58,065 nucleotides of DNA, taken from a virus. Each line of letters opens with the position of its first letter. Positions within the stretch are counted from its first letter, which is position 1. The stretch spans positions 1 to 58,065 of IMG/VR virus record IMGVR_UViG_3300008108_000078, one strand, 5' to 3'. Shown here one piece after another: positions 1,705 to 19,846 of this stretch. Both the position numbers and the translations under genes were made by a program. The notes beneath the pieces were generated by a model. That model did not search any database. It saw only the letters and a program-made list of their open reading frames with translations, and was not told the DNA's origin.

Positions 1705-1710
1705 GGAAAA

Positions 1711-2658: not shown

Positions 2659-2676
2659 AAAATAGGAATTAGGAAC

Positions 2677-3072: not shown

Positions 3073-3669
3073 TCACCATACACCAAAGTTAACTACACAT
3101 CTGTGTCCGGTAGTTGGCCTAGTGCTAGTATGATAACGAGAGCCATCAAATACGATGGCTCTTCCTTTTTTAGGTGTAATACTCTTAAAAATTTGTAAAT
3201 TTTCTTTTTTAAGATCATCGGGCGGAATGTCTCTAAAAGTTTTGTCATATATTACAGTATCTCCGTCGCTGTCTGTAACATAATATAGAACTACAATATG
3301 ACTAACTTCTCTATCAACATGCGGATGGTCTAATGCACTTTCTAAATTTGGCAGTGGAATAGTTAAAAAACTTCTTGCAGCAATAACTTCGTTTACATGA
3401 AATTTAATTTTTTCGCAAGCATTATATACAATAGGTAAAACTAGTCCGTATCCAGGACTGATAATTCCAGCAGTCCTGTCATAGAATTTATGAGCAAATG
3501 CAGGTTTAGCAACTGCTACATTTAATTCGTTAAATTTTTCATTGTCAAATGTTATATCTCTCATATAATGCCAAGTTATATTATTTCCCAGCATCTGAGT
3601 TTCTATCAAATCTTGATATTGTTTAGGAACAATATCATCTAATACAACAACGTCGTCTATTATAAGCAT
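3073..3669 (-). CDS. Predicted 2OG/Fe(II)-dependent oxygenase
   Basis: 198 aa. A double-stranded beta-helix oxygenase signature is present: HPHVDRE with His117 and Asp119 as metal ligands, a strand pattern through VVLYYVTDSDGDTVIYD, then the distal ligand in SRYHTSTRP (His180) and Arg190 in GHRCVVNFGVW as the expected 2OG carboxylate ligand. All iron and co-substrate residues therefore appear intact. It is the last gene of the long minus-strand string, overlapping the upstream gene by 10 bases, and meets the plus-strand gene 2677-3072 end to end with no gap. Substrate unknown. Confidence 0.8.
   Translation of the reverse strand: MLIIDDVVVLDDIVPKQYQDLIETQMLGNNITWHYMRDITFDNEKFNELNVAVAKPAFAHKFYDRTAGIISPGYGLVLPIVYNACEKIKFHVNEVIAARSFLTIPLPNLESALDHPHVDREVSHIVVLYYVTDSDGDTVIYDKTFRDIPPDDLKKENLQIFKSITPKKGRAIVFDGSRYHTSTRPTTGHRCVVNFGVW
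3139..3170 (+). terminator. Intrinsic terminator for the fibre genes, inside the opposing gene
   Basis: A 9-bp stem AGAGCCATC / GATGGCTCT (3139-3147 with 3154-3162) has a 6-base loop and is followed by TCCTTTTTT. In the plus direction it would end transcripts from the fibre genes. It lies within the 3' part of the minus-strand oxygenase gene. Confidence 0.65.
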
Positions 3670-4241
3670 ATTGAATTAAATGAAATAACTATCCTTGGTT
3701 GCGTTCCTTGATACACGTCGGCATCGTGTAGCAACATACTAGGAAATAAAACTAAATTTCCAGGAGAACAATTAACAGTAAAATGTTCATCGGCAAATTC
3801 TAAACCAAGTTTTCTTTCCATGTAATAAGGCAAGTACCAGTTATTACTTCCTCCTTTATTGTTTTCACTATCAACATAAAAAATACCAGACCAAGTTGAA
3901 CCAGGGTGATGATGGGGTTTGTGATACCCGCCACATCTAGTAACATGTGCCCAACTTTCGGTAATTACTGTTCTGTAATTAGTGTTGTTAAAATTATTAA
4001 TTAATGCAGTAGATTCTTGTATCAACCATAATTTTAAATTATTAATATCTGTTTGTTTTTCTAAAAAATCAAACGATGACTCCCATAAATTTAATTTGGC
4101 ATTAACTGCTATATTAGATTCTACAGTATTAGGGATTTCAGCTTTAAGGCAAGTCTCGACTATTGTTTTCTTATTATCCTCAAATTCTTTCCATGTACTT
4201 GTAAGTAAAGGAATTTTTCCTAATAGCGTAAATTGTCTCAT
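3660..4241 (-). CDS. Predicted 2OG/Fe(II) oxygenase (2OG-FeII_Oxy_5-like)
   Basis: 193 aa. The C-terminal half has the pattern of the putative oxygenase family found in many T4-like phages: YHKPHHHPGSTWSGIFYVD (His107-112 cluster), then GNLVLFPSMLLHDADVY with distal His172, and Arg183 in QPRIVISFN. The N-terminal half is a helical region with no clear motif. It overlaps the genes on either side by 10 and 4 bases, consistent with translational coupling. The family is widely predicted but few members have known substrates, so the call is family level only. Confidence 0.72.
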   Translation of the reverse strand: MRQFTLLGKIPLLTSTWKEFEDNKKTIVETCLKAEIPNTVESNIAVNAKLNLWESSFDFLEKQTDINNLKLWLIQESTALINNFNNTNYRTVITESWAHVTRCGGYHKPHHHPGSTWSGIFYVDSENNKGGSNNWYLPYYMERKLGLEFADEHFTVNCSPGNLVLFPSMLLHDADVYQGTQPRIVISFNSICL

Positions 4242-4969
4242 TTATCTATCTCTAAATCTTTAGATTCTAAAATGTATTTTACTTTATTTTTAATAAAACT
4301 TCTCCAACCAAATCTTGATAGTTTGTTTAAATTAAGAAGATTAGAAAATCTTTTATGATCTTTTTCAGTATATGATTTAGACTCTGCGTGTATAGTTTCT
4401 CTTTTATAAGGAATCACTTGCACTAACGGATCACCCATTTTAATTAATGTATCTTTTTTTTCAAAAAACATTAGATTTATAGGATTGCGATTTAGCATAC
4501 TATCTGTATCAACTATTGCGGGTAATGCTTGATAATTTTTATTGTGATAAAAATAAGGCAACCACATTAGGCCATACCCTTGTTCGGTTACAATACTCCA
4601 GGGGCTATTTAATTTAATAGACATTCGTAATTCAAACTGATTGCCAATAGTATCTCCTATCTGTTCCGAAGAATGAATTTCATACCCGTAATCAGTATTG
4701 CTCATTTCTATTTTTACAGAATCCTCAAAAAAAGATACTTGTATATCGCACCATGCAGGAATGATATAACCTGCTTTTGTATAATTTGATATAGCCGGGC
4801 ATTGCCTAATTGTTAACTGACTTGCAGATTTACTGTGGTCAAAAGGACAAATCTCACCAACCGGCAGATTTTTAAATTCGTCAGGAAAGTATTTTTCTGC
4901 CGGAATAACTGGAGCATAGTTTCTTATAGCCCAATCAGGACAACTAAATGTTATTTGATTATTACTCAT
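4238..4969 (-). CDS. DUF6065-like conserved phage protein, copy A
   Basis: 243 aa from the ATG at 4969; an upstream TTG at 4975 is also possible. Features: an N-terminal CPDWAIRNYAPVIPAEKYFP, the segment IRQCPAISNYTKAGYIIPAW at about 60-80, a middle beta-rich stretch (GNQFELRMSIKLNSPWSI, GYGLMWLPYFYH), and FEKKDTLIKMGDPLVQVIPY near 175-190. The layout of CPA, a D-rich strand, then a G-P-V/A motif before the C-terminus is shared with 11335-12036. It resembles DUF6065, a family of unknown function with an F-x-x-G-x-P-(I/V) motif. It sits inside the oxygenase/halogenase string. No catalytic motif was recognised. Confidence 0.65.
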   Translation of the reverse strand: MSNNQITFSCPDWAIRNYAPVIPAEKYFPDEFKNLPVGEICPFDHSKSASQLTIRQCPAISNYTKAGYIIPAWCDIQVSFFEDSVKIEMSNTDYGYEIHSSEQIGDTIGNQFELRMSIKLNSPWSIVTEQGYGLMWLPYFYHNKNYQALPAIVDTDSMLNRNPINLMFFEKKDTLIKMGDPLVQVIPYKRETIHAESKSYTEKDHKRFSNLLNLNKLSRFGWRSFIKNKVKYILESKDLEIDK

Positions 4970-5552
4970 TGGCAAATATATCCACTGATATTGTCAGTGT
5001 CATAACTAGCCTATTTTCTTGACTAGAATTTATTTCAGTTTTATGATGTAAAAATCCAGGGAAAAAGATCACATCATTCTGGTTAACTTCTAAAATAGTC
5101 CAGTCATTTTTGTTATTTTTTGGAAAACCAGAAAATGTATATTGTAACGGATCTTTAAACATTATATTTCCGCCTAATTTAGGTTGTTTTAAATAGATAA
5201 CAATATTTTGATGACACATTGCATGATCATGCTCATCTGTCCATGCGCCTGGGGGATGTAAGTTTACCCAGCTTCTGTGTACACGTCTTGGACGGTCGAC
5301 AAAATTAGATGTATCCCACACTATTTTACTTTGTTGAATTAACCACTCTTTTAGATCTTTACAAACAGGATCATTAATTAAGTTGTTTATAGTACTGTAT
5401 GTAGACTTGCCACCGTTTTTTTCTAAATTATGATTTGAATTTTCATTAAAGTATGTCAAAAATTTACTAGAAATATTTGTTAAATCTCCGGGATAAACAG
5501 ATTTATGTATTAAACTAGGCCAAAGATTTATGTGTTCGATTGATGACGTCAT
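4962..5552 (-). CDS. Predicted 2OG/Fe(II) oxygenase
   Basis: 196 aa. The metal-binding pattern is in TDEHDHAMCHQNIVIYL (His108, His110) and IFFPGFLHHKTEI (His169/His170), with Arg181 in NRLVMTLTIS as the likely 2OG-binding residue. KNGGKSTYST at about 45 matches NGGVSTYST in the paralogue at 12237-12956, so these two form a subgroup. It overlaps the downstream gene by 8 bases and begins 1 base after the upstream gene's stop. Iron and 2OG residues look complete; the substrate is unknown. Confidence 0.72.
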   Translation of the reverse strand: MTSSIEHINLWPSLIHKSVYPGDLTNISSKFLTYFNENSNHNLEKNGGKSTYSTINNLINDPVCKDLKEWLIQQSKIVWDTSNFVDRPRRVHRSWVNLHPPGAWTDEHDHAMCHQNIVIYLKQPKLGGNIMFKDPLQYTFSGFPKNNKNDWTILEVNQNDVIFFPGFLHHKTEINSSQENRLVMTLTISVDIFANE

Positions 5553-5553
5553 A

Positions 5554-6141
5554 TTATTCTACCAATTCGATCCACGTTGACATAATGTATTTTGTTCCAG
5601 ACAGCGGAGGATTTCCTCGATGAGTGTGTGTATAACTTGCAGGCGCAATAATCATTGTTCCCCGTTTTGGCGGGATTCTTACAGACTGATATAAAAATTC
5701 TGTTTCCCCACCATGTTCAATATCATTTAGATATAGCAACACAAATGCCAGTCGTCTTGCTGTTCCTATGTTTGCATGTTCACAATGCCATACATGATAG
5801 CCTTGCCTAGGTTCTGTTTTTTGTATTTTTACAGATTCACTTATGGCTTGTTTTGATATACTATTCAAAACTCCAATTTCATTAGAATACGATAAAAAAT
5901 TAGCTCTAATTGATTGATTAAATTCTTTTAAAATATTACTGTTGATATTAATTATAAAATCGTCAACCTCGTTTTCAACAAAATACTTTTCGTCGTCTTT
6001 GTTAATTTTTAAAGCACCGTCGTGTTGCTGTCGATTTAACGTTCTCCCTTCAGATTGCATTCTTTCAAAATGTGCAATCGCTCTATTACAGAAATCATCT
6101 GTTACAGAATTTGAATAAACTTTTATAAAAAAATCATTCAT
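5554..6141 (-). CDS. Prolyl-4-hydroxylase-like 2OG/Fe(II) oxygenase
   Basis: 195 aa. This copy looks like the prolyl 4-hydroxylase alpha-subunit fold: GYHVWHCEHAN (His119-x-Glu121 in the HxD position), RRLAFVLLYLND, the typical EHGGETEF at about 142-149, then a distal THTHRGNP (His172/His174) and Lys184 in SGTKYIMSTW, where the family has its basic 2OG ligand. Glu in place of Asp in the first dyad is a variation to note. It overlaps the upstream halogenase by 8 bases. Hydroxylation of protein side chains is the family norm; the target is unknown. Confidence 0.78.
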   Translation of the reverse strand: MNDFFIKVYSNSVTDDFCNRAIAHFERMQSEGRTLNRQQHDGALKINKDDEKYFVENEVDDFIININSNILKEFNQSIRANFLSYSNEIGVLNSISKQAISESVKIQKTEPRQGYHVWHCEHANIGTARRLAFVLLYLNDIEHGGETEFLYQSVRIPPKRGTMIIAPASYTHTHRGNPPLSGTKYIMSTWIELVE

Positions 6142-7723
6142 ATTTGTTTTTTAAATATTGATATAATGTCGTAGCAGAATCAGCAAATTCGTTTCTTTTG
6201 GCTAGGTCAGCATCCCATTTGTGCCAACATATATCCTTTAAGTAAGTCACGTACTCTGTATTAGCATTCCTAAACAACGTTCTTTTTAGTAAACTACTAT
6301 CAATTGGAAACAGATTCATTCCTGTGGCAATCATCATAGATCCGCCCATTTCTATATCATATAAATGACTTACAAATTTTCTATGTATTAGACTGTCTAT
6401 TCCGTAAGTTGCATAAACACCTAACTGCATAGTTTTAGGATAATTACGTTTTTGAGCAGCTTGCCAATAAGGTGTTTGATCTCTGTGACTCATGGCATAA
6501 TGTAAGGCTACAAATTCTGCAAACGCTCTAAAATCTCCTCTACATGCTTCGTTAAAAGCAGTTTTATCAAACTGACTTACAGAGTTTCTATTAAGTATTG
6601 CAACCAGTTTTAATAAAAATTCATGAACTGTATACAAACCGTTAGACTCTAATGGTTCAATAAAGCCGGCAGCAAGTCCAATTCCACAAACATTTTTGTG
6701 ATAAATTTCTTTGTGTATTCCTACTCTCATCTTAATGTTTTTAAATTCTAAAGAGTCAATAACAGATTTAGGAATTGGAACTTCTCTTTCGTTTTCTAAA
6801 TATTGTTTAAATTCTTCAAGAGCAGCATCGTCAGAAATAAATTTATCACTATAAACATATCCAGTACCAGTACGACTCCATAATGGAATGTTCCAAACCC
6901 ACCCATTTCCTATAGCTGTGCAATTAGTAAATGGCTCTAGTTCTTTCTCTTTATCTTGAAACGGGATACGTGTTGCCCATGCGCTGTTGTTAGGTAATAA
7001 ATCATTATAACTTTCAAACGGTGTGTGTAATGCTTTATCTAACAATATAGATTTAAAACCGGTGCAATCTAAGAATAAATCAGCAGTAACTATATCACCG
7101 TTATCTAATACTAAAGACTGAATTCCGTCGTCTTCCACTTGTACAGACAACACTTCTGCTTGAATGTGTACAACTCCTTTTGGAATAGCGTATGAATCTC
7201 TTAACCATGCACCAAACTTTGCCGCATCAAAATGATAAGCAACATCTCTATCAAAATTCCAGCCTGGTATTTCGTTGTTTTTATTATCGGTAATTTTATT
7301 TTTATTAACTAATGCCATGGCTGGAAAGAATGTATCGGCAAAATTTGAGACAGGTATCTCAGGTTGCATTGCTTTTCTTGTGTACCAGTCATTAACTCCG
7401 TAAGGAAAGAATTTATTGTCAAATAGCGGGACTCCAAACGGGTAATGAAATGCCCCAGCATTTTCTTTGTAAAAATTAGTGAATTTGATGCTCATTTTAT
7501 AACTAGCATCACATTGTTTCATCCAGTCGTCGTCTTTTATGTCGAGGTCATGCAGCCATTCGTTTATCTGCCCAATAGTACTTTCGCCTACGCCTACAGT
7601 TGGGACGTTAGGGCTTTCGATTACATAAATTTCTTTGTTTGGAAAATTTTTAATTAGCGTTGCTGCGCTCATCCATCCGGCGCTGCCGCCGCCTACTATA
7701 ACAATTTTATTAACAATACTCAT
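6134..7723 (-). CDS. Flavin-dependent tryptophan-halogenase family protein 1 (motifs intact)
   Basis: 529 aa, the usual length. N-terminal FAD-binding motif IVIVGGGSAGWMSA (8-21) and VGVGEST (43-49). Lys76 in SYKMSIKF sits where PrnA/RebH carry the catalytic lysine. WVWNIP at 275-280 is the WxWxIP motif that separates halogenases from flavin monooxygenases. The AAGFIEPLESNG segment (351-362) contains the conserved glutamate region. Such enzymes use reduced FAD, oxygen and halide to halogenate aromatic substrates, and a cyanophage member (VirX1) is known to iodinate diverse small molecules. No flavin reductase gene is seen in the window. A 30-base gap separates it from the upstream gene. Halogenase activity is likely; the substrate is unknown. 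Confidence 0.88.
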   Translation of the reverse strand: MSIVNKIVIVGGGSAGWMSAATLIKNFPNKEIYVIESPNVPTVGVGESTIGQINEWLHDLDIKDDDWMKQCDASYKMSIKFTNFYKENAGAFHYPFGVPLFDNKFFPYGVNDWYTRKAMQPEIPVSNFADTFFPAMALVNKNKITDNKNNEIPGWNFDRDVAYHFDAAKFGAWLRDSYAIPKGVVHIQAEVLSVQVEDDGIQSLVLDNGDIVTADLFLDCTGFKSILLDKALHTPFESYNDLLPNNSAWATRIPFQDKEKELEPFTNCTAIGNGWVWNIPLWSRTGTGYVYSDKFISDDAALEEFKQYLENEREVPIPKSVIDSLEFKNIKMRVGIHKEIYHKNVCGIGLAAGFIEPLESNGLYTVHEFLLKLVAILNRNSVSQFDKTAFNEACRGDFRAFAEFVALHYAMSHRDQTPYWQAAQKRNYPKTMQLGVYATYGIDSLIHRKFVSHLYDIEMGGSMMIATGMNLFPIDSSLLKRTLFRNANTEYVTYLKDICWHKWDADLAKRNEFADSATTLYQYLKNKYE

Positions 7724-7753
7724 GTTACTCCAATCTAATGTATATAATAATTA

Positions 7754-8401
7754 TCACATTGTAGAGTCTACTATAACATTTCCTGAAATTGTTATTCTAT
7801 GCTTGTCTGAAGATAAAAATGGATAAACCAAATGTTTCATTTGAGACGGAAAAAATAAAACAGTACCTTCATACTTGCTTTCTGCAAAAAACGGTAACAT
7901 AGTAATTTCCCCAAATACATTTGTATAGACAAAATTAAACGTTGTTGCTAACGGGTAATTAGAGCTAGAAACACAAGGCATCTCCATCTCTGTTTTTAAA
8001 TCATACGGAATGTTTACCCAAATAACAAAACTAAAAACACCAGTATGATCATGTAACGGATTGTATTCGGTTTTCTTTTGAAAATTAACCCATATAGGAT
8101 CCAACTTAAAAGATATTGTTTTTACAGACGGATGTTTTCTTAGAATTTCAGACTTATAGTTCCAGGCAAGCATATATTCGCCTGCCATTTCAAGCACAGT
8201 AGATTCTATAAGTGTTTGACACCTATCTAAATAAAATTGATATTCTAAATGGCCTGCTAGATTTTTTTGAATTTTAGGATGGTCTTCAATTGCATTTTCA
8301 ATAAGTGCAACTTCTTCTTTAATTTTTAAAAGAATATCATCAGGTATAGTAGCTATAGAATAGCCATAATTTGGAAACGCTTTATGTTCAATTTTCATCA
8401 T
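7754..8401 (-). CDS. Predicted 2OG/Fe(II) oxygenase
   Basis: 215 aa. The oxygenase pattern is PIWVNFQKKTEYNPLHDHTG with His117/His119, FSFVIWVNIPYD, then GTVLFFPSQMKHLVYPF with His190, and Arg202 in KHRITISGN. The N-terminal 100 residues are helical. It lies between halogenases 1 and 2, with the start overlapping the upstream stop (ATGA-type, 4 bases). Two start ATGs are adjacent (MM) and either could be used. This W-(V/I)-N-x-(Q/M)-K-x-x-(E/D)-x-N-P-x-H-x-H type is common in T4-like phages of marine bacteria. Function beyond the family is unknown. Confidence 0.78.
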   Translation of the reverse strand: MMKIEHKAFPNYGYSIATIPDDILLKIKEEVALIENAIEDHPKIQKNLAGHLEYQFYLDRCQTLIESTVLEMAGEYMLAWNYKSEILRKHPSVKTISFKLDPIWVNFQKKTEYNPLHDHTGVFSFVIWVNIPYDLKTEMEMPCVSSSNYPLATTFNFVYTNVFGEITMLPFFAESKYEGTVLFFPSQMKHLVYPFLSSDKHRITISGNVIVDSTM

Positions 8402-9882
8402 TTAGAAAAATTAACAACAGTACATGAGTTTCTAGATTTTAAAATTTCTAAACATTCTCTATGAGGAATCATAGTTTGTTCTTCAATAAACTTTTTAAAA
8501 TCTTTTTGTAGTTCGTTTATAGAAAACAACATGTCTTCATTTTGTTGCGACATCATATTTTTTATGCTTTCTGCATCAAGCATTTTTAAACCGTGCATGA
8601 CTAATAACCAATTTACTTCTCTAAAAAGCAAATATGGTTTAGTAAAGAACGTTGTATTAGGCCCAGACATTTTAAAATGCTCTAATGTTTGCTGATTAAA
8701 TTCAGTTAATTTTAAATTTTTACAATCCTTCCAAAAAGCAGAATCACTTCTGTTAGTTATATAATGCAATTGAACAAAGTCAATAATATTTTTAGCTACG
8801 TCTTCAAAATCAGAATTATATTTGTCAATTAATGGCTGATTGCCGTGTTCATAGTTTACTAAAGAGTTAGCAATGCCAAATGCTTGCTGAATAGAAGTTC
8901 CTATACTACTTGCCTCTAACGGTTCAACAAAACTTCCTGCAAGTCCAACAGAAATGCAATTTTTAATCCAAAATTTATCTACATATCCTGCTGTAAATTT
9001 AAATGTTTTAGCAATATTAATAGGAGAGGAAAAAACTGATTGTGCTTCTGCTATGGCTTGTTCGTCTGTAATAAATTTATCACAATATACATAACCATTA
9101 CCAAATCTATCAATAGTTGGTATTCTCCACATCCAACCAGAACTCATTGCAGTACTAAGGGTGTGTGAAGGAATATCTTCTATTTTTTCTGTAGGAAATG
9201 CAAACGCACTATTCATTGGTAGATAGTCAGAACAGTCTACCCATGTTGCACCTAATTTAGAAGATATGACACGTTTAAATCCACTACAGTCAATAAAAAA
9301 ATCTGCTGAATATTTTCCAGATTTGCCAACTAGTTCTGAAACATGACCTGTGTTATCTAAGATAACATCGTCTATTGTATCATCAATAATTTTTATATCT
9401 CTGATTAAACATTGCTTAATAAGATAATCGTTAAGTTTCATTGTATTGAAATGAAACTGATTAACGGTTCCCTCCAATGGCTCGTAATGAACTGATTTAT
9501 GAAGGTTATCAGGAATAATATCGTGATGTGTTTTTCCTTCAGCAATCATACCTAAATAAATGTTATTAGGACCATTATAGCTTTCTTTTAAAAAATGACC
9601 ATGGACACTATGAAAATAATAGTCATCGTCTCCATTCCAATTTATAAATTTTATACCAGATTTAAATGTTGCATCTGTTTCTTTTAATAATTCTTGGATT
9701 GAAATTCCTGCAACCTGCATAAAGCGAGCCCAATGTTCAGTTGACCCTTCTCCAACTCCAATAATGCCAATGTCAGATGATTTTACTATTGTAATATCAA
9801 GTTTTCTGTAGATAGATTTTAATATAATTGCGTTAACTAGTCCACTAGTCCCACCGCCAAGAATTATTAATTTGTTAATCAT
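8398..9882 (-). CDS. Flavin-dependent tryptophan-halogenase family protein 2
   Basis: 494 aa. FAD motif LIILGGGTSGLVNA (5-18), GVGEGSTEH instead of the usual GVGES-T, Lys74 in ATFKSGIKF at the catalytic-lysine position, the WxWxIP motif as SGWMWRIP followed by FGNGYVYCDKF, and VGLAGSFVEPLEASS for the conserved glutamate region. All core halogenase motifs are present with minor variation. It overlaps the downstream oxygenase by 4 bases and the upstream gene by 8. It is clearly diverged from protein 1, so the array is not a recent tandem duplication. Likely a functional halogenase with its own specificity (inference). Confidence 0.85.
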   Translation of the reverse strand: MINKLIILGGGTSGLVNAIILKSIYRKLDITIVKSSDIGIIGVGEGSTEHWARFMQVAGISIQELLKETDATFKSGIKFINWNGDDDYYFHSVHGHFLKESYNGPNNIYLGMIAEGKTHHDIIPDNLHKSVHYEPLEGTVNQFHFNTMKLNDYLIKQCLIRDIKIIDDTIDDVILDNTGHVSELVGKSGKYSADFFIDCSGFKRVISSKLGATWVDCSDYLPMNSAFAFPTEKIEDIPSHTLSTAMSSGWMWRIPTIDRFGNGYVYCDKFITDEQAIAEAQSVFSSPINIAKTFKFTAGYVDKFWIKNCISVGLAGSFVEPLEASSIGTSIQQAFGIANSLVNYEHGNQPLIDKYNSDFEDVAKNIIDFVQLHYITNRSDSAFWKDCKNLKLTEFNQQTLEHFKMSGPNTTFFTKPYLLFREVNWLLVMHGLKMLDAESIKNMMSQQNEDMLFSINELQKDFKKFIEEQTMIPHRECLEILKSRNSCTVVNFSK

Positions 9883-12244: not shown

Positions 12245-12956
12245 TTTTTAAACTCCGTTTCATATGATCTAGAATAAATTCTAAATTTAAAATTTTATTT
12301 TGTAACTGATCAATTTCACTAGTATGTGGTTGATAGTCTATTACATAGTTGCTGTCTGACGAAAGATATTTTCCAGAGTAATTAATGTTGTAACTCATTA
12401 CAATTCTAGGGTGATTAGAAAGATTTTCTTTTGTCTTATGTCTAATCCATCCCGGAAATAATATTAAATCTCCTGTCGAAACTGGAATAGAAGTTTCTAT
12501 TTTATTTTCAATAGCAACTCCATACGGTATATGGGTTAGTCCATATTCCATTGGATTTATTAATACTAAGTCTCCAGAGTTTTTTTCGGCTTTTATGTAT
12601 AATGTAGCAACTATTGGATATAAACTATGAGAATGTTCTACTGTAAGACTATTATTATAATGTATATTTGACCAACATTGGTCAATCCTAGGTTCTAACC
12701 TAGGATCAATATCTAATATTTTCCAATATAATTTAGTATGTTGTAGAACAATATCTGATACTGTTTTTGAATATTCTTCTAGATGTAAATTACAGTCAGT
12801 GGAATAAGTGCTCACTCCACCGTTCATTTCTAAATTACTAGTTTTAGGGGAAGATTGCTTTAATTTAACCTGTAGATTTTCTTCAAGATTACTAGTATCT
12901 ATTTGATCTAAAATATTAACTTTATATATTGGTAAAGAGAATAAATTGATAATCAT
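12237..12956 (-). CDS. Predicted 2OG/Fe(II) oxygenase with C-terminal coiled coil
   Basis: 239 aa. EMNGGVSTYST at about 43-53 and TVEHSHSLYPIVATLYI (His108, His110) precede TGDLILFPGWIRHKTKE (His173) and Arg184 in HPRIVMSYN. The oxygenase part ends near residue 195. A heptad-like helix follows (IDQLQNKILNLEFILDHMKR), a coiled coil that most neighbours lack, suggesting oligomerisation or docking to a partner. It belongs to the same subgroup as 4962-5552. Iron ligands look complete; the substrate is unknown. Confidence 0.72.
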   Translation of the reverse strand: MIINLFSLPIYKVNILDQIDTSNLEENLQVKLKQSSPKTSNLEMNGGVSTYSTDCNLHLEEYSKTVSDIVLQHTKLYWKILDIDPRLEPRIDQCWSNIHYNNSLTVEHSHSLYPIVATLYIKAEKNSGDLVLINPMEYGLTHIPYGVAIENKIETSIPVSTGDLILFPGWIRHKTKENLSNHPRIVMSYNINYSGKYLSSDSNYVIDYQPHTSEIDQLQNKILNLEFILDHMKRSLKND

Positions 12957-12962
12957 CGCGCT

Positions 12963-13550
12963 TTATTCCAAGTACCATTTTTTACTCACAAAAGTTTTAA
13001 AAGAAAGATATGTTCTAAGTTTTTTGCAATCTCTATTAGGTGCAAGGCCCCTGTGAGGTATGTTACTATCAAAAACTAAACAAGTATTGGGCATTGGGTA
13101 ATAGGTTGCAATAACATTTCCGGCTTGATCAAAAAACTGAAATTCTCCTCCCCATTCTGGATTCCATTCCTGATTAGGGAAAAAACAAAAAGTCATAAAT
13201 CCGTCGCCCATGTCGTTAAACTCTACTTCTTTATCAGTGTGTATTCCGCCATCTAACCCAAATGTTTTTCCTCCGGCAATAGCACTATAAAGTTTAAATT
13301 GATATTTTTTGGTACTAGGCTCAAGTTCATTTAATTTATTAATGATTTCGTAAAACGCCTGTTCTCCTACCATGTGATACAATGTTAAATCGGCTTGCCA
13401 AAACATTGTTGTATCCTCGTCCCAAACGTCAGGATTTGTAACTCTGCCATATTGCCAAATTGGTTTTTTCAATTCAGCAACAATGTTTACAAATGTATCA
13501 TTTCTCAGTACATTTTCTAAATAAAATATTTCAGACATGGGTTTGTTCAT
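12963..13550 (-). CDS. Predicted 2OG/Fe(II) oxygenase
   Basis: 195 aa. A clear facial triad: GGIHTDKEVEF with His104 and Asp106, FCFFPNQEWNPEWGGEFQFF (the GGE(F/L)xF strand), and VFDSNIPHRGLAPNRD with His166, then Arg179 in KLRTYLSFK. This is a classical HxD...H...R arrangement. The first ATG follows the upstream stop directly (TAATATG). An internal ATG 12 bases later is an alternative start. The substrate is not predictable. Confidence 0.78.
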   Translation of the reverse strand: MNKPMSEIFYLENVLRNDTFVNIVAELKKPIWQYGRVTNPDVWDEDTTMFWQADLTLYHMVGEQAFYEIINKLNELEPSTKKYQFKLYSAIAGGKTFGLDGGIHTDKEVEFNDMGDGFMTFCFFPNQEWNPEWGGEFQFFDQAGNVIATYYPMPNTCLVFDSNIPHRGLAPNRDCKKLRTYLSFKTFVSKKWYLE

Positions 13551-13551
13551 A

Positions 13552-14184
13552 TTAGTTGATATCCTTATTGTGTCTATTTATGGCCTGTTTTGCCATATTT
13601 TTAGAATTTTGATTAGACCATTCTGGGAAATTATGCTCCTCCGCTGCTAGGCTAGACAGCAAATTTGTGTCTAAATCGTGTTTGTAATTTGCATAACTGC
13701 CATGTTTTTTAACATAATGAAGAAATGCTTGATACTGATACTGTTGCCCTTGCATGGGGTGTCTAAAATGCATAATTTCAGTTCCTTTGTACAGTAGCAC
13801 ATCACCAATGTCTAAGTCAACACTTATAACTTGTCCGTTATCTACTAACCAAAATGGCCATATGTATTTTTCATAATTCAACGTTAACGTAAGACTAATT
13901 TCACAACTTGGTCTATCAGTGTGTGGTGGAAGACTATCATTTTCTTGATATATCCTAGCATATGAATAGCATGGATATAATTCTTCTCCTACTATTGTTT
14001 CAACATTTTTTTGTATTTCTACTAATTCATCATTAAATATTCCGTAAAACGCAGGACTTAACGTACACAACGGATCGGGATTTCGATATACTCCTTGGCC
14101 AAATAATGTATTAAGCCTGTTGGTCATCTCTACACATTTTTCTTTTTCAAAGAAATTTTTTAAAATCTTATAATTTTCTTTCAT
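13552..14184 (-). CDS. Predicted 2OG/Fe(II) oxygenase
   Basis: 210 aa. YARIYQENDSLPPHTDRPSC carries His88 and Asp90; LDIGDVLLYKGTEIMHFRHP carries the distal His139. A basic residue at the usual 2OG position is less obvious than in the neighbours (QYQAFLHYV follows). The C-terminal 50 residues are polar and probably helical. The YxRxYxxxxxLxxHxDRxxCE pattern is common in phage and bacterial oxygenases of unknown substrate. It overlaps the upstream gene by 17 bases. Confidence 0.7.
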   Translation of the reverse strand: MKENYKILKNFFEKEKCVEMTNRLNTLFGQGVYRNPDPLCTLSPAFYGIFNDELVEIQKNVETIVGEELYPCYSYARIYQENDSLPPHTDRPSCEISLTLTLNYEKYIWPFWLVDNGQVISVDLDIGDVLLYKGTEIMHFRHPMQGQQYQYQAFLHYVKKHGSYANYKHDLDTNLLSSLAAEEHNFPEWSNQNSKNMAKQAINRHNKDIN

Positions 14185-14755
14185 TTTGGCTAAGAGTTAT
14201 ATTAAACGATAAACTAATTCTTTTATGACTTGTATTATTATGAAACACGGCATGTTCTAAAAAACTTGGAAATAACAAAATCTTTCCAACTTCTGGTTTA
14301 TAGTTAACAGCGTTATCAATATTGTAAGTTAGCTTATGAAATCTATTAACTAAAGAAGGATTTCTAAAAACAATATCTCCGTCATCACCAGAAGTTTGGT
14401 GATAATAAACACCAGACATGTCACTATCGCCGTGCAAATGATAATGTTGAAAAGAATGTTCGCCTCCTATATTACACCACGATTCTCTAACATTAATGTT
14501 TAAATTAGAATAGTTTAATCGTATTAAGAATTCCCTACAATGTTTTTTTATTTCTTCTAATAGAATTGGTGTTTCAGATAAAACGTGTTCGTAATTACCA
14601 TACTTAAAAGTAGTTGAAACTGTGTCTCCCCAAGGATTTACAAGCCGTGCTCCATGTAAAGTAGACACATACTCTGAAACTTCTTTTTGAATTGAATCTA
14701 TATTTTCAACAATAGCAAAATATATAGGAGTAGGAAAAAAATATTCAACTGGCAT
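14168..14755 (-). CDS. Predicted 2OG/Fe(II) oxygenase (2OG-FeII_Oxy_5-like)
   Basis: 195 aa. It begins with YFFPTPIYFA, the typical short N-terminal strand of this family. Key motifs: SFQHYHLHGDSDMSGVYYH with His106 and His108, GDIVFRNP, then GKILLFPSFLEHAVFHN with His168, and Arg179 in SHKRISLSFN. The full set of expected ligands is present. It overlaps upstream by 11 and downstream by 17 bases. Substrate unknown. Confidence 0.78.
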   Translation of the reverse strand: MPVEYFFPTPIYFAIVENIDSIQKEVSEYVSTLHGARLVNPWGDTVSTTFKYGNYEHVLSETPILLEEIKKHCREFLIRLNYSNLNINVRESWCNIGGEHSFQHYHLHGDSDMSGVYYHQTSGDDGDIVFRNPSLVNRFHKLTYNIDNAVNYKPEVGKILLFPSFLEHAVFHNNTSHKRISLSFNITLSQNERKL

Positions 14756-15371
14756 TGGATTCTATTGACAAGTTAAAAGGAATACTTATTTTATTTTTTA
14801 ATTGTTTATGACTATCATATCCATGATATACATTAGATTTAAACAATACTAATCTTCCAGGAACACAGTCATATGAGATTTTAGAATAATTCATCGGGTT
14901 ATGAACCCAAGGTTTAACCGGTTCGTATGCATCTCTGTAAGGCGAACCAAAACATATCTTTGCACCTGGCGGAGCATCTACATAAAATACTCCGCTTATA
15001 GCAGCCCTGCCAACAGTACTATGAATATGTTGAGCATGATAATCATATGGACCAATAGAATTTAACCACATGTTTGTAAAAGCCAGTTGATTCTCTTTTA
15101 AAGAAGGATATCCTAATACTTCACAAAATAGTAATGTTTGTTTTCGAATAGCTAAACATAAATCAGAAAATCTAACATCATTGTATAAATGACCGTATAC
15201 GTCATGCCAAAAAGAAGTATGCAGACTACTTTCACCAAACGGATGAGGATCCTTTTCAATGTCTTTAAACATTTCCAAAGCAATCTGTTCGTAGTCGGCA
15301 AGTTTATCCATGCAGTTAAGGTCTGAATAATAGACCAATGTTGGAAACCACGAATCAATATAATGTGTCAT
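14745..15371 (-). CDS. Predicted 2OG/Fe(II) oxygenase (2OG-FeII_Oxy_5-like)
   Basis: 208 aa. It starts with DSWFPTLVYYSD. The core motifs are YHAQHIHSTVGRAAISGVFY (His115, His117), a strand IC-FGSP with P-x-D-A insertions, and GRLVLFKSNVYHGYDSH (His183). Lysines 192/194 (LKNKISIPFNLS) replace the usual arginine. It overlaps neighbours by 4 and 11 bases. The family assignment is good; the basic-residue change may affect co-substrate binding. Confidence 0.75.
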   Translation of the reverse strand: MTHYIDSWFPTLVYYSDLNCMDKLADYEQIALEMFKDIEKDPHPFGESSLHTSFWHDVYGHLYNDVRFSDLCLAIRKQTLLFCEVLGYPSLKENQLAFTNMWLNSIGPYDYHAQHIHSTVGRAAISGVFYVDAPPGAKICFGSPYRDAYEPVKPWVHNPMNYSKISYDCVPGRLVLFKSNVYHGYDSHKQLKNKISIPFNLSIESNAS

Positions 15372-15955
15372 TTAAATCTTGGCCCTACGACCCAGGAAAC
15401 TAAACTTTTTCTTAAACCTTCTGTTACCGGAGTTACTTCGTGAATTACATAACTGGGGAATACAATTAAAGTTCCTTTAGTTTTAGGAGCAATTACTGGA
15501 TCCTTTGTTGAAAATCTATAAAATAATAATTCACCTCCTTGGTAGTCGGCTTCATCCGAAAGTTGAATAGTTAAACTTAATTTTCTAAAAAGATTATATT
15601 TGTAACCGTCGTCGCTGTGTGGTTTGTAATGACCTAGTGTATCTGAATGGTATTCAGCGTACTGTAAGTCTTCCATTTCTGTTAAATCGTATCTGTAAAA
15701 TCTGTCATTCAACTGTTGAATAATATTTGAAAGTTTCATGTAAAGATCTTTGGATTCTTCGTTAGTTTCAATCCAAGAAATTTTATTCTTACGAATTTCT
15801 TCGTTAGAAATTCCGGCTTCTAAAGTGCCATCGCCCTGCATAGTACTTTTGCTAGCCAGCATTTCTACTAATTTTATTTCATCATCGGTAAGAACGCCTG
15901 GTGCGTATGCAAATGGTTCATTTGCGTAATTTAAATCTTTTATAAACCAGCTCAT
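15368..15955 (-). CDS. PKHD/prolyl-hydroxylase-type 2OG/Fe(II) oxygenase
   Basis: 195 aa, the closest in the string to classical PKHD-type (PiuC-like) hydroxylases: LGHYKPHSDDGY with His113 and Asp115, LSLTIQLSDEADYQGGELLF (the D-Y-x-GGEL strand), then GTLIVFPSYVIHEVTPVTEG with His172 and Arg182. PiuC-like proteins end similarly with H-x-V-x-P-V-x-x-G-x-R. The family hydroxylates small molecules or protein side chains; the substrate here is unknown. It overlaps both neighbours by 4 bases, suggesting coupled translation. Confidence 0.85.
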   Translation of the reverse strand: MSWFIKDLNYANEPFAYAPGVLTDDEIKLVEMLASKSTMQGDGTLEAGISNEEIRKNKISWIETNEESKDLYMKLSNIIQQLNDRFYRYDLTEMEDLQYAEYHSDTLGHYKPHSDDGYKYNLFRKLSLTIQLSDEADYQGGELLFYRFSTKDPVIAPKTKGTLIVFPSYVIHEVTPVTEGLRKSLVSWVVGPRFK

Positions 15956-16524
15956 TGTTTCAATCCTGTATCAAAACTAACCACATATCGTTGATTAGAA
16001 AAATTATTTTCAGTGTAATGCATCAGCCAACTAGGAAACAATATTAAATCTCCCAGTGCTACTTTAAAATTAAAGGCTTGTCTGTTGTATTCAGTTAATC
16101 TTGTTGAAATTTCATTAACCTTAAAAGGTTGACATGGGTTATCAAATATTAACTCGCCCGAATCGTCATCTGCTTTGCTATAAAAAACACCACTTATTAG
16201 ACTAAGTTCGTGCCTATGAGGTTTAATTGTGCTGCCATCTCTGTATATGTTACACCAACTATAAGTTATTTTACAAGGATGCAATCCTAATTGATCAGCA
16301 TAAAGATCTACACATTCCTGTATAGCATTTTTAAGATCTAAATTAGAATCTAAAAAAGAAGATGAGTTGCTTCTTAAACCTTTACCATTAAACAACTTAT
16401 GATAAGTGTTAACAAGTTCAGTTTCTTCAATTTTTTTACTAATTTCTTCTAAGTTAGCTTTGCCTAACAAATTATAAACATTTATAACGGTTGGAAATAA
16501 CCAACATTCTGCTTTTTTAATCAT
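15952..16524 (-). CDS. Predicted 2OG/Fe(II) oxygenase (2OG-FeII_Oxy_5-like)
   Basis: 190 aa. WLFPTVINVYN at the start, TIKPHRHELSLISGVFYSK with His103 and His105, GELIFDNPCQPF, then GDLILFPSWLMHYTENN with His169, and Arg179 in NQRYVVSFD. All ligands expected for this family are present. It is the first oxygenase transcribed after the Nudix gene and starts 1 base after that gene's stop. Substrate unknown. Confidence 0.78.
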   Translation of the reverse strand: MIKKAECWLFPTVINVYNLLGKANLEEISKKIEETELVNTYHKLFNGKGLRSNSSSFLDSNLDLKNAIQECVDLYADQLGLHPCKITYSWCNIYRDGSTIKPHRHELSLISGVFYSKADDDSGELIFDNPCQPFKVNEISTRLTEYNRQAFNFKVALGDLILFPSWLMHYTENNFSNQRYVVSFDTGLKQ

Positions 16525-16525
16525 T

Positions 16526-16975
16526 TTAAATTAAGTCCACTAAATCAAATATTGTTTGTAATTTTGTTCTAATAGTTTTATTACTAAAACTATTTCTCAA
16601 ACCTTGATGCAATGGTTTAGGAGCGTAATCAACATTTACCCATGCGTAGCCGGTGTGTTCTTGGCTGAGAATGGGAATAAATTCGTTGTCTATTACACAG
16701 AGATATGTGTGAAAATTAAAAACTTTGTCGTTTGATACAAACGTCTCTAATGGTATAGTTTTGATTATGTGGGGAGTTGTGCCTACTTCTTCAGATACTT
16801 CTCTTTGAAGTCCTTGCCAGGGATTTTCATGTTGTAGGTTAGTGCCACCTACTAATCCCCAAGTACCAGCATGTTTGCCTTCGGCTTTTTGTAACAGTAA
16901 AAATCTTCGTGTAGATTTAGCGTAGAATAATGCTCCGCTACATACAATCTTATCTGTTACAGTTCTAATCTCCAT
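16526..16975 (-). CDS. Nudix hydrolase
   Basis: 149 aa. A complete Nudix box GGTNLQHENPWQGLQREVSE continues into EVG, matching G-x5-E-x7-R-E-U-x-E-E-x-G at about 42-65. It is preceded by the usual GALFYAKSTRRFLLLQKAEG strand-loop. Nudix enzymes cleave nucleoside diphosphates linked to another moiety (oxidised dNTPs, NADH, nucleotide sugars, capped RNA); the specificity here is not readable. The C-terminus includes HTGYAWVNVD. It overlaps the end of the gp15-like gene by 19 bases and leads the oxygenase string, so it is probably expressed late with it. Confidence 0.88.
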   Translation of the reverse strand: MEIRTVTDKIVCSGALFYAKSTRRFLLLQKAEGKHAGTWGLVGGTNLQHENPWQGLQREVSEEVGTTPHIIKTIPLETFVSNDKVFNFHTYLCVIDNEFIPILSQEHTGYAWVNVDYAPKPLHQGLRNSFSNKTIRTKLQTIFDLVDLI

Positions 16976-18417
16976 TCGCCCGCCCTATACTCGCCTTCAA
17001 ACGATTTAGCCCAAAATACACCATTCCAGACGTACTGGACCCCAGTATATATATTCGTTTGATATATGAGTGTGTCGGATTCTTGAGTAGAATTAAAAAT
17101 TATATACCAATTTGTATTATCAAATTCTATAATATCGTTTGCATAGGCAACTAGATTCCCCCAAGCACTAGCTGGTTGAGTGTTATTTTCGTTGCCTATA
17201 TCTTCTATAATTAAGTATCGAGTACCTGCTACTGGTGACTCTGGATTATAGGTCAGGGGATTAATAATTGCATCAAATGTTCCTGGGCTTGCTGGCCTTA
17301 AGTTATTTGTTCCGTAGTCGGCATCAGTGTCCAAATTACCGTCGCTATCAATTCCTGTATTCGTATTAAGTGTATCTGCGTCCCAGGATACTTGTAGGAT
17401 TGTTGGATCTAGTGGACTTATTGCCACTGTGCCTATAACTTCTGTTCCGTTTGATTGAGTTAAGTACAATGAACTTGATCCTGCTGTGTACTTTCCAGGA
17501 TATTTGTCAAAAAGTGCTTGCCATTCAATTGGCGTTCCTTGACGAACAGGTATATCCAGTGTTGGTTCTCTAGGCACGCTGCTTTCTGATTTATTCAATA
17601 AAATTACTTGATTGTTATAAACTTGAACATTGTAATCTGTAATAGTAGCAGATTCGCGAGTTAACAACTGCCCCATAGCAATATCTGGACCCGCTAATGG
17701 CTGACCTAATCCTTCTATGTAAGAATTATTGTTTACATTTGCACCGTCATATAAACTTGTAATAATTTTAGTAATAACTCCAAGATGCTTAACTTTAACT
17801 GGAGGACTAATCCATATAGGAGTTTCTAACTGTAGTGTTGCAATATCAATAGGACTATCAGTACCTACTGGAACACTACGACTAGACCATGTTGTCTGTG
17901 TTAGATTTAAAATTGAAAGGCTTGTCCAGTCAACATAATTGTCGGTTGTCTGTAGTTCAAGGCTTGGATTAAACAATACTAGTATTTGTTCTAGTAACTG
18001 TAATTTTTGTTCAGTATTTGCAGTCCATATATCACACTTCATAGTTAACTTAAAAGGCGTTGGCATCAAACGCTCAACAGTATAGTTGCGTCCTTGTCCA
18101 GAAGTGTACACTGGATTATTTGGATCAGCGTCATTTATTTCGCGTTCTCTTACATGAACTTTGCCTACAAAAGTAGAGTCACTCATTCTAGTCATGTCTA
18201 AATCTAAACCAGAAATATAAACAGCAATTCTTGGCACACTACTAATTTTGTTTTCACTGTTTTGACGAACAATACTTGCCGCCTGCCTATCGGCATCTCC
18301 GTACATAACCGGAACACGAACAAGAGTTCCATCTCCGTATTTGACTGTAAAATTACTCAACACACGAATAGTTTGAGTTAAGTACCTTCTTATTTGTCCG
18401 TCATAAAAAAATTGCAT
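16957..18417 (-). CDS. T4 gp15-like tail terminator / sheath-stabilising protein, enlarged
   Basis: 486 aa. The N-terminal 230 residues follow the layout of T4-type gp15 (FYDGQIRRYLTQTIRVLSNF, VPVMYGDADRQAAS, SSVPRIAVYISGL, TPFKLTMKCDIWTAN, LLEQILVLFNP, then a strand of the type TLQLETPIWISPP). It follows gp14 directly, as expected. The C-terminal half is extra and includes a beta-type segment (AGTRYLIIEDIG, YVWNGVFWAKSFEGEYR) like modules in gp14 and the sheath of this phage. gp15 caps the tail below the neck and stabilises the sheath end. The length is well above the roughly 270 residues usual for gp15, so the assignment is tentative. Confidence 0.62.
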   Translation of the reverse strand: MQFFYDGQIRRYLTQTIRVLSNFTVKYGDGTLVRVPVMYGDADRQAASIVRQNSENKISSVPRIAVYISGLDLDMTRMSDSTFVGKVHVREREINDADPNNPVYTSGQGRNYTVERLMPTPFKLTMKCDIWTANTEQKLQLLEQILVLFNPSLELQTTDNYVDWTSLSILNLTQTTWSSRSVPVGTDSPIDIATLQLETPIWISPPVKVKHLGVITKIITSLYDGANVNNNSYIEGLGQPLAGPDIAMGQLLTRESATITDYNVQVYNNQVILLNKSESSVPREPTLDIPVRQGTPIEWQALFDKYPGKYTAGSSSLYLTQSNGTEVIGTVAISPLDPTILQVSWDADTLNTNTGIDSDGNLDTDADYGTNNLRPASPGTFDAIINPLTYNPESPVAGTRYLIIEDIGNENNTQPASAWGNLVAYANDIIEFDNTNWYIIFNSTQESDTLIYQTNIYTGVQYVWNGVFWAKSFEGEYRAGEWRLEL

Positions 18418-19829
18418 TATAAATCTGCCTTTGGTCTAAGAGCTTTAGATAAACTCTGTCGTTGTGCTTCTCTATTCTTGCAAAGACTAATCTTCCAAGT
18501 GCCTGTATGAGGAATAATTTGTTGCTCATCGCTAATTACAGGAAGTTCAATGCGAATTTTACCAGCGTTATTAGTTATCATGCTAGTATAATCTTCAATA
18601 GTAAAACCTATTTCCGTTGTTTCTAATTTTAATACCAGATATACTGCACCTGTTAAATCTAAATAGTTAATATTGGTGTCAAATTCAATATCGCCTTCGT
18701 CTAACTTCACCCAATCAATCGCAGTTGCTTGATTGTAGATATAAGAAGTATTATTAATAAATCCAGTTTTAAGAGTTTGACGAGTATCGTTGTTAGTCAT
18801 ATTCATACGCACAGCATCTTCTACTTTAATCCAACGTGTGCCGTCAAAGCGGAATAATCTGTTGGGCATAAAATCTGTACGTAGGAAAAAATCATCTGGA
18901 CCTGGTGCTTCGGGAAACTGTATGCCGTGGCCAAAATCATATCCGTTTTGCGGGAACCCATCTCCAACTAGATAACCAGTGTAACCAGTTCTGACAGGAC
19001 GAGCATTGCTTTCTAGTGCAGTAATACTTGTTATAGATGCATCTAGTTCAGTTGTATCTGAAGTATTAAGTACAGTTTTTCCTTTTTCATCAACTGCCAA
19101 AGTATAAAACTGTCTTGTTTCATATCCACTCTTAGGAGCATCTGCTTCTGCTTGTTGAACAACAGCATCGTTAATCACAAGTTCTTGTGTTCTCATACTT
19201 AACAAATCACGCAGAGTTTTATCGCTTGGATTACCGTACGCATCAGTTGCTGGCTTATCTAAAATATCTGCGAATTGTTGTGCATCTAGTAATTTCTTGC
19301 AACGTAATCTATACAAGTGAGGATACCATGTTGCACTAAATCCTTCGCTAGCACGGCCAACATCTTCAATTACGTAATATCTTGGCAGAGCAATGTCGTA
19401 ATCATTTAATGCAAATTGGTCTTTTAAATGAGGTAATTCAATAACGTCACCTGATAAGGGTTTACGTCCAACATATTCAATAAAATTATTAATGTGGACC
19501 GTCATAAAAATTATATCATTGTCAATGAATAATCCAAATTGACTTAGGTTAAAATCAATATTTGCAACATTATAGAGCCCGCGAATTTTGTAAATTTCTT
19601 CGCTGTATTTTCTGTCTCTATTTTCTAAAAATAACAAATCTTGAATGTTTGTTTCTTTGACAGCATCGTACACTGGTTGATCTGCTGTACCTTCGTCTTT
19701 TAGTTTAGGACCTAGATACTTGTGCAAATAAACATCTGTACCGCCAACCTGAAACATCTCAGAAATTGAGCGATCTATAAATTTGTAGTCTTGCCCTCGT
19801 TCGGGCTTATATAAGGATAATCGTGGCAT
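18417..19829 (-). CDS. 14: Neck protein gp14
   Basis: 470 aa from the ATG at 19829 (MPRLSLYKPERG). The recognisable gp14 features of T4-like marine phages are the N-terminal neck segment with FMTVHINNFIEYVGRKPLSG, then PRYYVIEDVGRASEGFSATW and YPHLYRLRCKKLLDAQQF at about 165-215. It forms part of the head-tail connector with gp13. Between about 290 and 350 there is an inserted module (PGPDDFFLRTDFMPNRLFRF, DGTRWIKVED) like those in the sheath protein. An upstream in-frame ATG at 19892 would run into the opposite gene and is rejected. No Shine-Dalgarno is visible; a late box lies 5 bases upstream. Confidence 0.85.
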   Translation of the reverse strand: MPRLSLYKPERGQDYKFIDRSISEMFQVGGTDVYLHKYLGPKLKDEGTADQPVYDAVKETNIQDLLFLENRDRKYSEEIYKIRGLYNVANIDFNLSQFGLFIDNDIIFMTVHINNFIEYVGRKPLSGDVIELPHLKDQFALNDYDIALPRYYVIEDVGRASEGFSATWYPHLYRLRCKKLLDAQQFADILDKPATDAYGNPSDKTLRDLLSMRTQELVINDAVVQQAEADAPKSGYETRQFYTLAVDEKGKTVLNTSDTTELDASITSITALESNARPVRTGYTGYLVGDGFPQNGYDFGHGIQFPEAPGPDDFFLRTDFMPNRLFRFDGTRWIKVEDAVRMNMTNNDTRQTLKTGFINNTSYIYNQATAIDWVKLDEGDIEFDTNINYLDLTGAVYLVLKLETTEIGFTIEDYTSMITNNAGKIRIELPVISDEQQIIPHTGTWKISLCKNREAQRQSLSKALRPKADL

Positions 19830-19834
19830 AATGA

Positions 19835-19842
19835 TATTTATC
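19835..19842 (-). promoter_or_regulatory. Late-promoter-like box GATAAATA for the gp14-oxygenase string
   Basis: On the minus strand GATAAATA is followed by TCATT and then the gp14 ATG. It is the only promoter-like signal I see at the head of the 16.7-kb minus-strand string. The short distance would give a leaderless or near-leaderless transcript. Confidence 0.55.
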
Positions 19843-19846
19843 GCTA

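Follow-up and report, generated by a model that had tools for sequence, protein, structure and literature searches.

Many aquatic phages encode halogenases and 2-oxoglutarate (2OG) oxygenases, and such genes are usually classed as auxiliary metabolic genes with which the phage reprograms its host. The cyanophage halogenases have been read as antibiotic protection (PMC2984593; PMC9964418) and the 2OG genes as host reprogramming (PMC3037559; PMC9602691). VirX1 is described as an isolated biocatalyst that accepts many free aromatic compounds in vitro, and the review names no pathway for it (PMC8407142). In the jumbo cyanophage S-SSM6a, a 10-gene cluster of halogenase and 2OG genes was interpreted as a metabolite or capsule pathway by Iyer et al. 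2021 (PMC7824862). The locus described here belongs to a large uncultured phage, virus record IMGVR_UViG_3300008108_000078, the whole of which (58,065 nucleotides) constitutes the window to which all coordinates refer. It is a minus-strand cassette of oxygenase and halogenase-family genes that follows the neck genes gp14 and gp15. At its far end the cassette converges with the tail-fiber adhesin genes and the small gene orf3 (window 1-3072).

VirX1 (PDB 6QGM) is identical to CPUG_00131 of phage Syn10 and is encoded inside an adhesin-halogenase locus. Its full-length homolog in the window, hal1, is about 40% identical and has VirX1 as its best PDB match. The Syn10 locus resembles that of its near relative Syn9 and contains Gly-rich adhesins, orf3, two halogenases, a DUF6065-like gene and a string of 2OG genes, whereas the window has three halogenase-family members and 12 oxygenases on another phage backbone. 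Like the window cassette, the S-SSM6a cluster combines an amino-acid halogenase and several 2OG enzymes within a phage, but it also has carbamoyltransferases, a HemK-like methylase and sugar phosphatases, none of which was found in the cassette by Pfam or PHROGs. Phage S-CREM1 (OP535465, ~54.5-64.8 kb) has an adhesin, orf3, a halogenase, a DUF6065-like gene, eight 2OG genes and a JmjC gene, but these were published as auxiliary metabolic genes and the halogenase was read as antibiotic protection (PMC9964418).

Two further systems are relevant to the substrate. The gp38-type tips of Salmonella phage S16 and of hafunaviruses are Gly-rich fiber-end proteins that govern host range (PMC6851490; PMC8651126). 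The window adhesins are likewise Gly-rich, of the Gly_rich_2 type, an assignment made by sequence, but the passages of these papers that were consulted do not mention tip-modifying enzymes. A literature search on hydroxylation of phage tail fibers, covering few subscription papers, gave nothing relevant. The bacterial flavoprotein QhpG dihydroxylates a residue within a polypeptide (PMC7876137) and thus acts on a protein, not on a free amino acid. The similarity of the window flavoprotein hal3 to QhpG is very weak (0.03) and partial, and QhpG matures an enzyme cofactor.

The cassette is probably, though with considerable doubt, a tail-tip tailoring module, the late-made enzymes of which would hydroxylate and halogenate the tips of the tail fibers. 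This reading is favored because the adhesins and the halogenases are linked when sampled from either side, in six cyanophage genera and at the VirX1 locus itself. It is also favored because of a C1q-like variant of the tips, the proximity of DUF6065-like and adhesin genes in haloviruses, the conserved late-type box, the QhpG precedent and the presence of a JmjC_2 protein in some related arrays. Characterized JmjC_2 enzymes hydroxylate proteins.

In the proposed mechanism gp14 and gp15 would be made late in infection, read-through would add the enzymes encoded downstream of them, and the tip adhesins encoded convergently next door would be produced alongside. The 2OG-type oxygenases would hydroxylate, and the VirX1-like flavoprotein would halogenate, residues of the tip proteins, either ahead of assembly or while it proceeds. 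Oxygenases of different families could give several types of modification. The modified tips would differ in receptor binding or stability, which might benefit adsorption. A broader and more tentative proposal is that several phage families carry dedicated multi-enzyme modules halogenating and hydroxylating their own tips, that the adhesin is the natural substrate of VirX1-type halogenases, and that host recognition would depend on non-standard residues not apparent from the genome sequence. If the enzymes do act on tail tips, much of the auxiliary-metabolic reading is wrong and phage host range has a layer of chemical diversity that is invisible in sequence. The natural role of VirX1 would then be directly testable in the cultured cyanophages Syn9, Syn10 and S-CREM1, and the modules would supply enzymes for halogenating or hydroxylating folded proteins.

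Linkage of the enzymes to tail-fiber tip genes

An adhesin profile matched every one of the 16 records that contain a complete array and none of the seven halogenase-free relatives. A tblastn search with the adhesin gave no match, probably owing to low-complexity filtering. When the sampling was started from the tfB adhesin, with a scan built on the motifs of the window adhesin subfamily, 69 of 73 viral loci were found to have an adhesin triplet together with a gene of the Trp-halogenase family, and 53 carry 2OG genes. The four loci lacking a halogenase are on contigs that stop short of its position. The contigs share ancestry; a full-length hal1-type gene is present in 65 loci, of which 38 are distinct at 90% halogenase identity. 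This near-obligate linkage is seen in three arrangements (convergent, mixed-strand and co-directional) and in distant virus families. In Kyanoviridae the halogenase is less than 1 kb from the adhesin, in the same order, in all six cultured genera with a strong adhesin match. By this linkage the cassette is tied to a receptor-binding tip gene set, a partner that the earlier, sequence-only reading of this DNA had left unnamed.

A frequent order of genes is a fiber of more than 2000 residues, three adhesins, orf3, the halogenase, a DUF6065-like gene and the 2OG genes, with gp13 present in several loci; relatives carry three tandem adhesin copies. In many loci the very long fiber gene is next to the triplet, so that another virion protein such as this fiber, and not the tips, might be the one modified. 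The unusually tight partner of the enzymes is the triplet with orf3. Linkage alone cannot separate the two possibilities, and modification of such another protein is considered quite unlikely.

Two related arrays, L227 and L228, carry three tandem tip proteins in place of the Gly-rich triplet; one of these proteins scores above the C1q cut-off and the others align with it. The link is therefore to tips and not to one particular sequence. These C1q-like triplets (L227 13010-15912; L228 12721-15624) come after a fiber of 3269-3995 residues and adjoin halogenase arrays. In haloarchaeal hafunaviruses a DUF6065-like gene is close to an adhesin with 25% Gly. The Gly-rich adhesin of haloarchaeal viruses is implicated as the host-range determinant by Liu et al. 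2021 (PMC8651126).

Several observations weigh against modification of the tips. The linkage is inside a variable tail locus and could reflect hitch-hiking, and the count of 69 out of 73 holds for one motif-defined adhesin subfamily because the scan was limited to it. Halogenases far from such an adhesin are found in S-B64 and P-SSM2, as the third copy in S-RIM44 and as the second copy in Sf-CH11. No 2OG gene was seen in the adhesin-halogenase loci L176, L177, L185, L212 and L214, and in the stretches examined the haloviruses carry the DUF6065-like gene without a halogenase. The structure model of the Gly-rich adhesin had a predicted local distance difference test (pLDDT) score of 52 and was not used for a fold search. 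Finally, Trp constitutes only 0.7% of the Gly-rich domain, so that the halogenated residue would have to be Tyr or His.

Tyr or His residues are accordingly the predicted sites of halogenation if the tips are the substrate. The first candidates are the columns of Tyr193 and Tyr167 of the window tfB. The Tyr193 column is occupied by Tyr in 156 of the 157 aligned tips and by Asn in the single halogenase-free comparator; resting on one outgroup, this comparison is only a lead. The Gly-rich domain is also poor in Lys and Arg. S-CREM1 has, beside its intact adhesin gene, a second copy with five in-frame stops (OP535465 54524-55291), possibly a decayed or frame-shifted paralog.

Phage backbone, block transfer and putative late transcription

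The terminase is 53% identical to those of PA5oct-group phages, and gp15 is closest to its counterparts in Phosso, the PA5oct group and Atu_ph07. Judged by these affinities, the phage is near the PA5oct-type jumbo phages. The psbA gene (PF00124) was found in none of 10 relatives, so that a cyanobacterial host is not indicated. A placement among the T4-like cyanophages (Kyanoviridae) is rejected on the terminase and gp15 affinities and the lack of psbA in these relatives.

A search with hal2 gave 47 contigs, most of them with related strings and with gp15 adjoining wherever the contig extends that far. Compared with the nearest relative, L005, the ratio of non-synonymous to synonymous substitutions (dN/dS) is 0.05-0.21 for each cassette gene for which it could be computed, with ox6 and ox9 having the highest values; dufA is saturated and ox4 has no counterpart in L005. 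The cassette is under purifying selection. This selection and the recurrence of the gene order across many contigs show that the cassette is more than a chance assembly. The sequence-only reading had taken the enzymes for a coherent set and had proposed chance co-occurrence as the outcome that would refute it. Of the gp15 relatives for which 5 kb or more of downstream sequence is available, 21 have both halogenase and 2OG genes, 16 have neither, three have only 2OG genes and none has only a halogenase. Co-occurrence is thus better than chance, and the association remains significant after dropping gp15 proteins that are at least 95% identical.

The cassette genes shared with contig L006 are mostly 65-91% identical, compared to 51-54% for gp14 and gp15, which indicates that the block moves between backbones. 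As exceptions, ox1, ox4 and ox5 lack a counterpart on that piece of the contig, and ox2 reaches only 31% with its best match. Such movement would also be expected if the slot between the neck and the tail-fiber genes gathers cargo and recombination swaps the interval, in which case enzymes with unrelated targets would be hitch-hiking with the adhesins. The slot does hold other cargo: the Sinorhizobium phage Phosso has a nicotinamide adenine dinucleotide (NAD)-salvage set between gp15 and the tail genes (L132 20577-27116), and cassette-free relatives have large adhesins. Nevertheless, hitch-hiking leaves out that the link persists through the three arrangements and through distant virus families, that it is specific to certain tip types and that halogenase-free relatives lack this adhesin. 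It is thus an improbable explanation, albeit one to be taken seriously.

The Pseudomonas phage Cassandra has the gp14-gp15-Nudix block but not the cassette. Because the gp15-Nudix order persists in Cassandra and in cassette-free relatives, the Nudix gene is assigned to the conserved neck block and not to the cassette. In a second lineage (L036 4196-7169; L038 1330-5500) virion-type proteins that end in a cupredoxin-like YRYQC..H..M motif, as well as subtilase-like genes, are positioned between gp15-Nudix and the array. L012 has an SGNH-hydrolase-like open reading frame, recognized by eye and lacking a Pfam match, and a DUF6445 protein among its oxygenases (5005-5754, 4470-5123).

The late-type box that the sequence-only reading placed at gp14 is indeed there: its sequence is GATAAATA, and of the 39 related loci at least 31 keep it before gp14. 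Together with its inverted partner it lies between gp14 and gp13 (19835-19854). In T4-type late promoters the late genes follow a TATAAATA-type box, and GATAAATA is a variant of it. Neither TATAAATA itself (2 found, 6.2 expected) nor GATAAATA (5 found, 4.2 expected) is enriched in number, but the GATAAATA copies are located at gene starts and the gp14 copy is conserved. The boxes stop only ~5 nucleotides short of the ATG in gp14 and in a tail-tube gene (window 19829-19842, 25897-25910). Because the box is so close to the ATG, the late messages of the two genes may be leaderless. Matches to sigma-70-like promoters in the region are as frequent as expected by chance, and those to terminators nearly so, and therefore they argue neither for nor against a single transcript. 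One transcript for gp14 and the enzymes is plausible. No transcriptome of a homologous cyanophage array, including from Syn9 infection, was found in the literature searched.

In several cyanophage papers such genes were proposed to serve host metabolic takeover, with the oxygenases draining 2-oxoglutarate or altering nitrogen signaling and the halogenases giving antibiotic-like protection (PMC3037559, PMC2984593, PMC9964418, PMC9602691). For the window cassette this role is very unlikely: twelve diverse oxygenases with conserved metal motifs would hardly be needed for draining one metabolite, the genes come after the neck genes behind a late-type box, and no photosynthesis gene was found in the relatives. 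The preference of the sequence-only reading for virion proteins over host takeover agrees with the conserved late-type box, the neck-gene string and the linkage to tip genes. Its other suggested target, the surface of the released cell, was dropped, there being no linkage that supports it.

Gene content of the cassette and its enzymes

The string runs on the minus strand from 19829 to 3073 in the order gp14, gp15, Nudix, ox12, ox11, ox10, ox9, ox8, ox7, ox6, Cys-rich, dufB, hal3, hal2, ox5, hal1, ox4, ox3, dufA, ox2 and ox1 (Table 1). It has been described as nearly free of gaps, and all of its genes were found in place; the largest gap at the 20 junctions from gp14 to the last oxygenase is 30 bp, and the majority of the junctions are overlaps. 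By Pfam and PHROGs the string holds 12 genes of the 2OG-oxygenase type, three of the Trp-halogenase family, two DUF6065-like genes and one Cys-rich gene. The gp14, gp15-like, Nudix and Cys-rich assignments of the sequence-only reading agree with matches to a virion structural PHROG, PF16724, PF00293 and DUF6171, respectively, and all three of its tryptophan-halogenase-family flavoproteins pass PF04820 at E<=1e-73. Its count of 12 oxygenases is borne out by Pfam for ten, with ox1 being below the gathering score and ox8 having no Pfam match. The two proteins called DUF6065-like do not match the Pfam family themselves, but some of their relatives do. The metal motif has the HxD/E form in five oxygenases and the HxH form in seven; hal1 and hal2 have all the halogenase motifs that were tested, and hal3 lacks WxWxIP.

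A carbamoyltransferase, HemK-type methylase, sugar enzyme, ligase or transporter was found by neither Pfam nor PHROGs among the window cassette genes. This bears on the possibility that the enzymes serve to synthesize or decorate a small molecule or glycan, namely a halogenated and hydroxylated metabolite or a surface polysaccharide. Such a product was proposed for S-SSM6a by Iyer et al. 2021 (PMC7824862); it would agree with the many free aromatic compounds accepted by VirX1 (PMC8407142), and carbamoyltransferases and sugar genes surround the S-SSM7 halogenase. Since the window cassette has no such biosynthetic genes, nothing in it would build the scaffold, and the fixed link to the tip-adhesin triplets is left unexplained. 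A small-molecule or glycan product is therefore regarded as unlikely, if worth keeping in view.

Table 1. Positions of the cassette genes, their neighbors and the putative transcription signals in the window
Feature	Position	Strand	Assignment and support
Third Gly-rich tip adhesin, C-terminal end	1..192	+	Cut by window edge; frame-1 translation ends in GQTGVCVVYEYK and a stop, as in the tfB family
tfA, Gly-rich tail-fiber adhesin	199..1704	+	phrog_863 tail, E=9e-36
tfB, Gly-rich tail-fiber adhesin	1711..2658	+	phrog_863, E=5e-39; PF21722 Gly_rich_2 above cut-off
orf3, small protein between adhesins and enzymes	2677..3072	+	phrog_1787, E=6e-19; in most adhesin-halogenase loci
ox1, 2OG-type oxygenase	3073..3669	-	HxD..H..R, invariant; phrog_274 3e-33; PF13640 below cut-off
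Terminator-like hairpin	3138..3163	+	10-pair stem and T-run, consensus match only; could end the adhesin-strand transcript
ox2, 2OG-FeII_Oxy_5	3660..4241	-	HxH..H; PF13759 3e-17
dufA, DUF6065-like protein A	4238..4975	-	phrog_7084 4e-41
ox3, 2OG-FeII_Oxy_5	4962..5552	-	HxH..H; PF13759
ox4, 2OG-FeII_Oxy_3	5554..6141	-	HxE..H; PF13640 2e-10
hal1, VirX1-like flavin-dependent halogenase (predicted)	6134..7723	-	PF04820 1e-106; best PDB match VirX1 2e-115
ox5, 2OG-FeII_Oxy_5	7754..8401	-	HxH..H; PF13759 6e-10
hal2, Trp-halogenase-family flavoprotein	8398..9882	-	Full motif set; PF04820 9e-99
hal3, divergent Trp-halogenase-family flavoprotein	9875..11386	-	PF04820 3e-74; WRFNID for WxWxIP
dufB, DUF6065-like protein B	11335..12036	-	phrog_17480 1e-13, phrog_7084 2e-7
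Cys-rich 72-residue protein, DUF6171	12026..12244	-	PF19668 above cut-off
ox6, 2OG-FeII_Oxy_5	12237..12956	-	HxH..H; PF13759
ox7, 2OG-FeII_Oxy_3	12963..13550	-	HxD..H..R; PF13640 9e-8
ox8, 2OG-like by motif only	13552..14184	-	HxD..H; phrog_2954 2e-42, PHROG name 'ferrochelatase'
Possible internal late-type box, CATAAATA	13575..13582	-	~25 nucleotides before ox7; same place in L004, L005; similar in L007, L008
ox9, 2OG-FeII_Oxy_5	14168..14755	-	HxH..H; PF13759 7e-19
ox10, 2OG-FeII_Oxy_5	14745..15371	-	HxH..H; PF13759
ox11, 2OG-FeII_Oxy_3	15368..15955	-	HxD..H..R; PF13640 4e-14
ox12, 2OG-FeII_Oxy_5	15952..16524	-	HxH..H; PF13759 5e-18
Nudix hydrolase	16526..16975	-	PF00293
gp15-like tail sheath stabilizer	16957..18417	-	PF16724 (T4 gp15) 2e-23
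gp14-like virion structural protein	18417..19829	-	phrog_11591 1e-83
Late-type box before gp14, GATAAATA	19835..19842	-	Kept in at least 31 of the 39 related loci
Late-type box before gp13, GATAAATA, inverted partner	19847..19854	+	Such a box present in 19 of the 39 related loci
gp13-like neck protein, divergent from gp14	19872..20666	+	phrog_211 head-tail adaptor

The whole-domain PF04820 scores of hal1, hal2 and hal3 are 358, 332 and 251 bits, respectively, compared to a cut-off of 21. All three have the GxGxxG flavin motif and the K79-like catalytic Lys. The WxWxIP motif is WVWNIP in hal1 and WMWRIP in hal2, but it is replaced by WRFNID in hal3, which for this reason is called a family flavoprotein and not a halogenase; the label of halogenase for all three is thereby rejected. 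The NCBIfam matches of hal3 are weak (LodB 8e-9, QhpG 0.03), a scan for its relatives gave one locus, and its true start may be a later ATG. Halogenation by hal1 and hal2 would be a prediction from motifs and homology, VirX1 being the only homolog that has been assayed (PMC8407142), and hal3 should not be presumed to halogenate.

The PF13759 or PF13640 gathering score is passed by 10 of the 12 oxygenases. Ox1 is just under the Pfam cut-off (24.4 compared to 27 bits), and both ox1 and ox8 fall into PHROG families at E<=1e-32. For ox8, a PDB profile search also gave no match, and hhalign found no link to the ox9 profile (probability 1.5%); its metal motif is invariant among 19 sequences. A conserved HxD/E followed by a later His is present in ox1, ox4, ox7, ox8 and ox11. 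The other seven (ox2, ox3, ox5, ox6, ox9, ox10 and ox12) have instead an invariant HxH and a later His, a feature shared by their orthologs in PF13759, so that the metal site of these 2OG_Oxy_5 proteins may consist of three or two His residues. They may not use 2-oxoglutarate conventionally. Most pairs of oxygenases have weak or undetectable similarity, and the best pairs are 30-39% identical over part of their length. The oxygenases are thus a collection and not the product of a recent amplification. Proteins with metal motifs of the 2OG-oxygenase type (ox1, ox7 and ox8 of the window, and others in cyanophage records) bear the PHROG and GenBank names 'DNA endonuclease V' (phrog_274) and 'ferrochelatase' (phrog_2954). 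These names are likely misannotations that conceal 2OG strings in cyanophage genomes.

The Cys-rich DUF6171 protein was considered as a precursor resembling those of ribosomally synthesized and post-translationally modified peptides, and the idea was set aside; its gene is found mainly in one array lineage and in S-SRM01. An NCBIfam search with the DUF, Cys-rich and adhesin proteins gave nothing informative. DufA and dufB do not match PF19541 (DUF6065), but 6 of 39 aligned homologs do (best 1e-6), and the DUF6065 label is therefore fair at the family level. The AlphaFold2 model of dufA (pLDDT 81) was matched by Foldseek to dUTPases (E=4e-5), and a dUTPase-like fold is predicted for this protein. 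In S-CREM1 the DUF6065-like homolog is named a triphosphate nucleotidohydrolase, and some relatives of the window have three tandem DUF6065-like copies.

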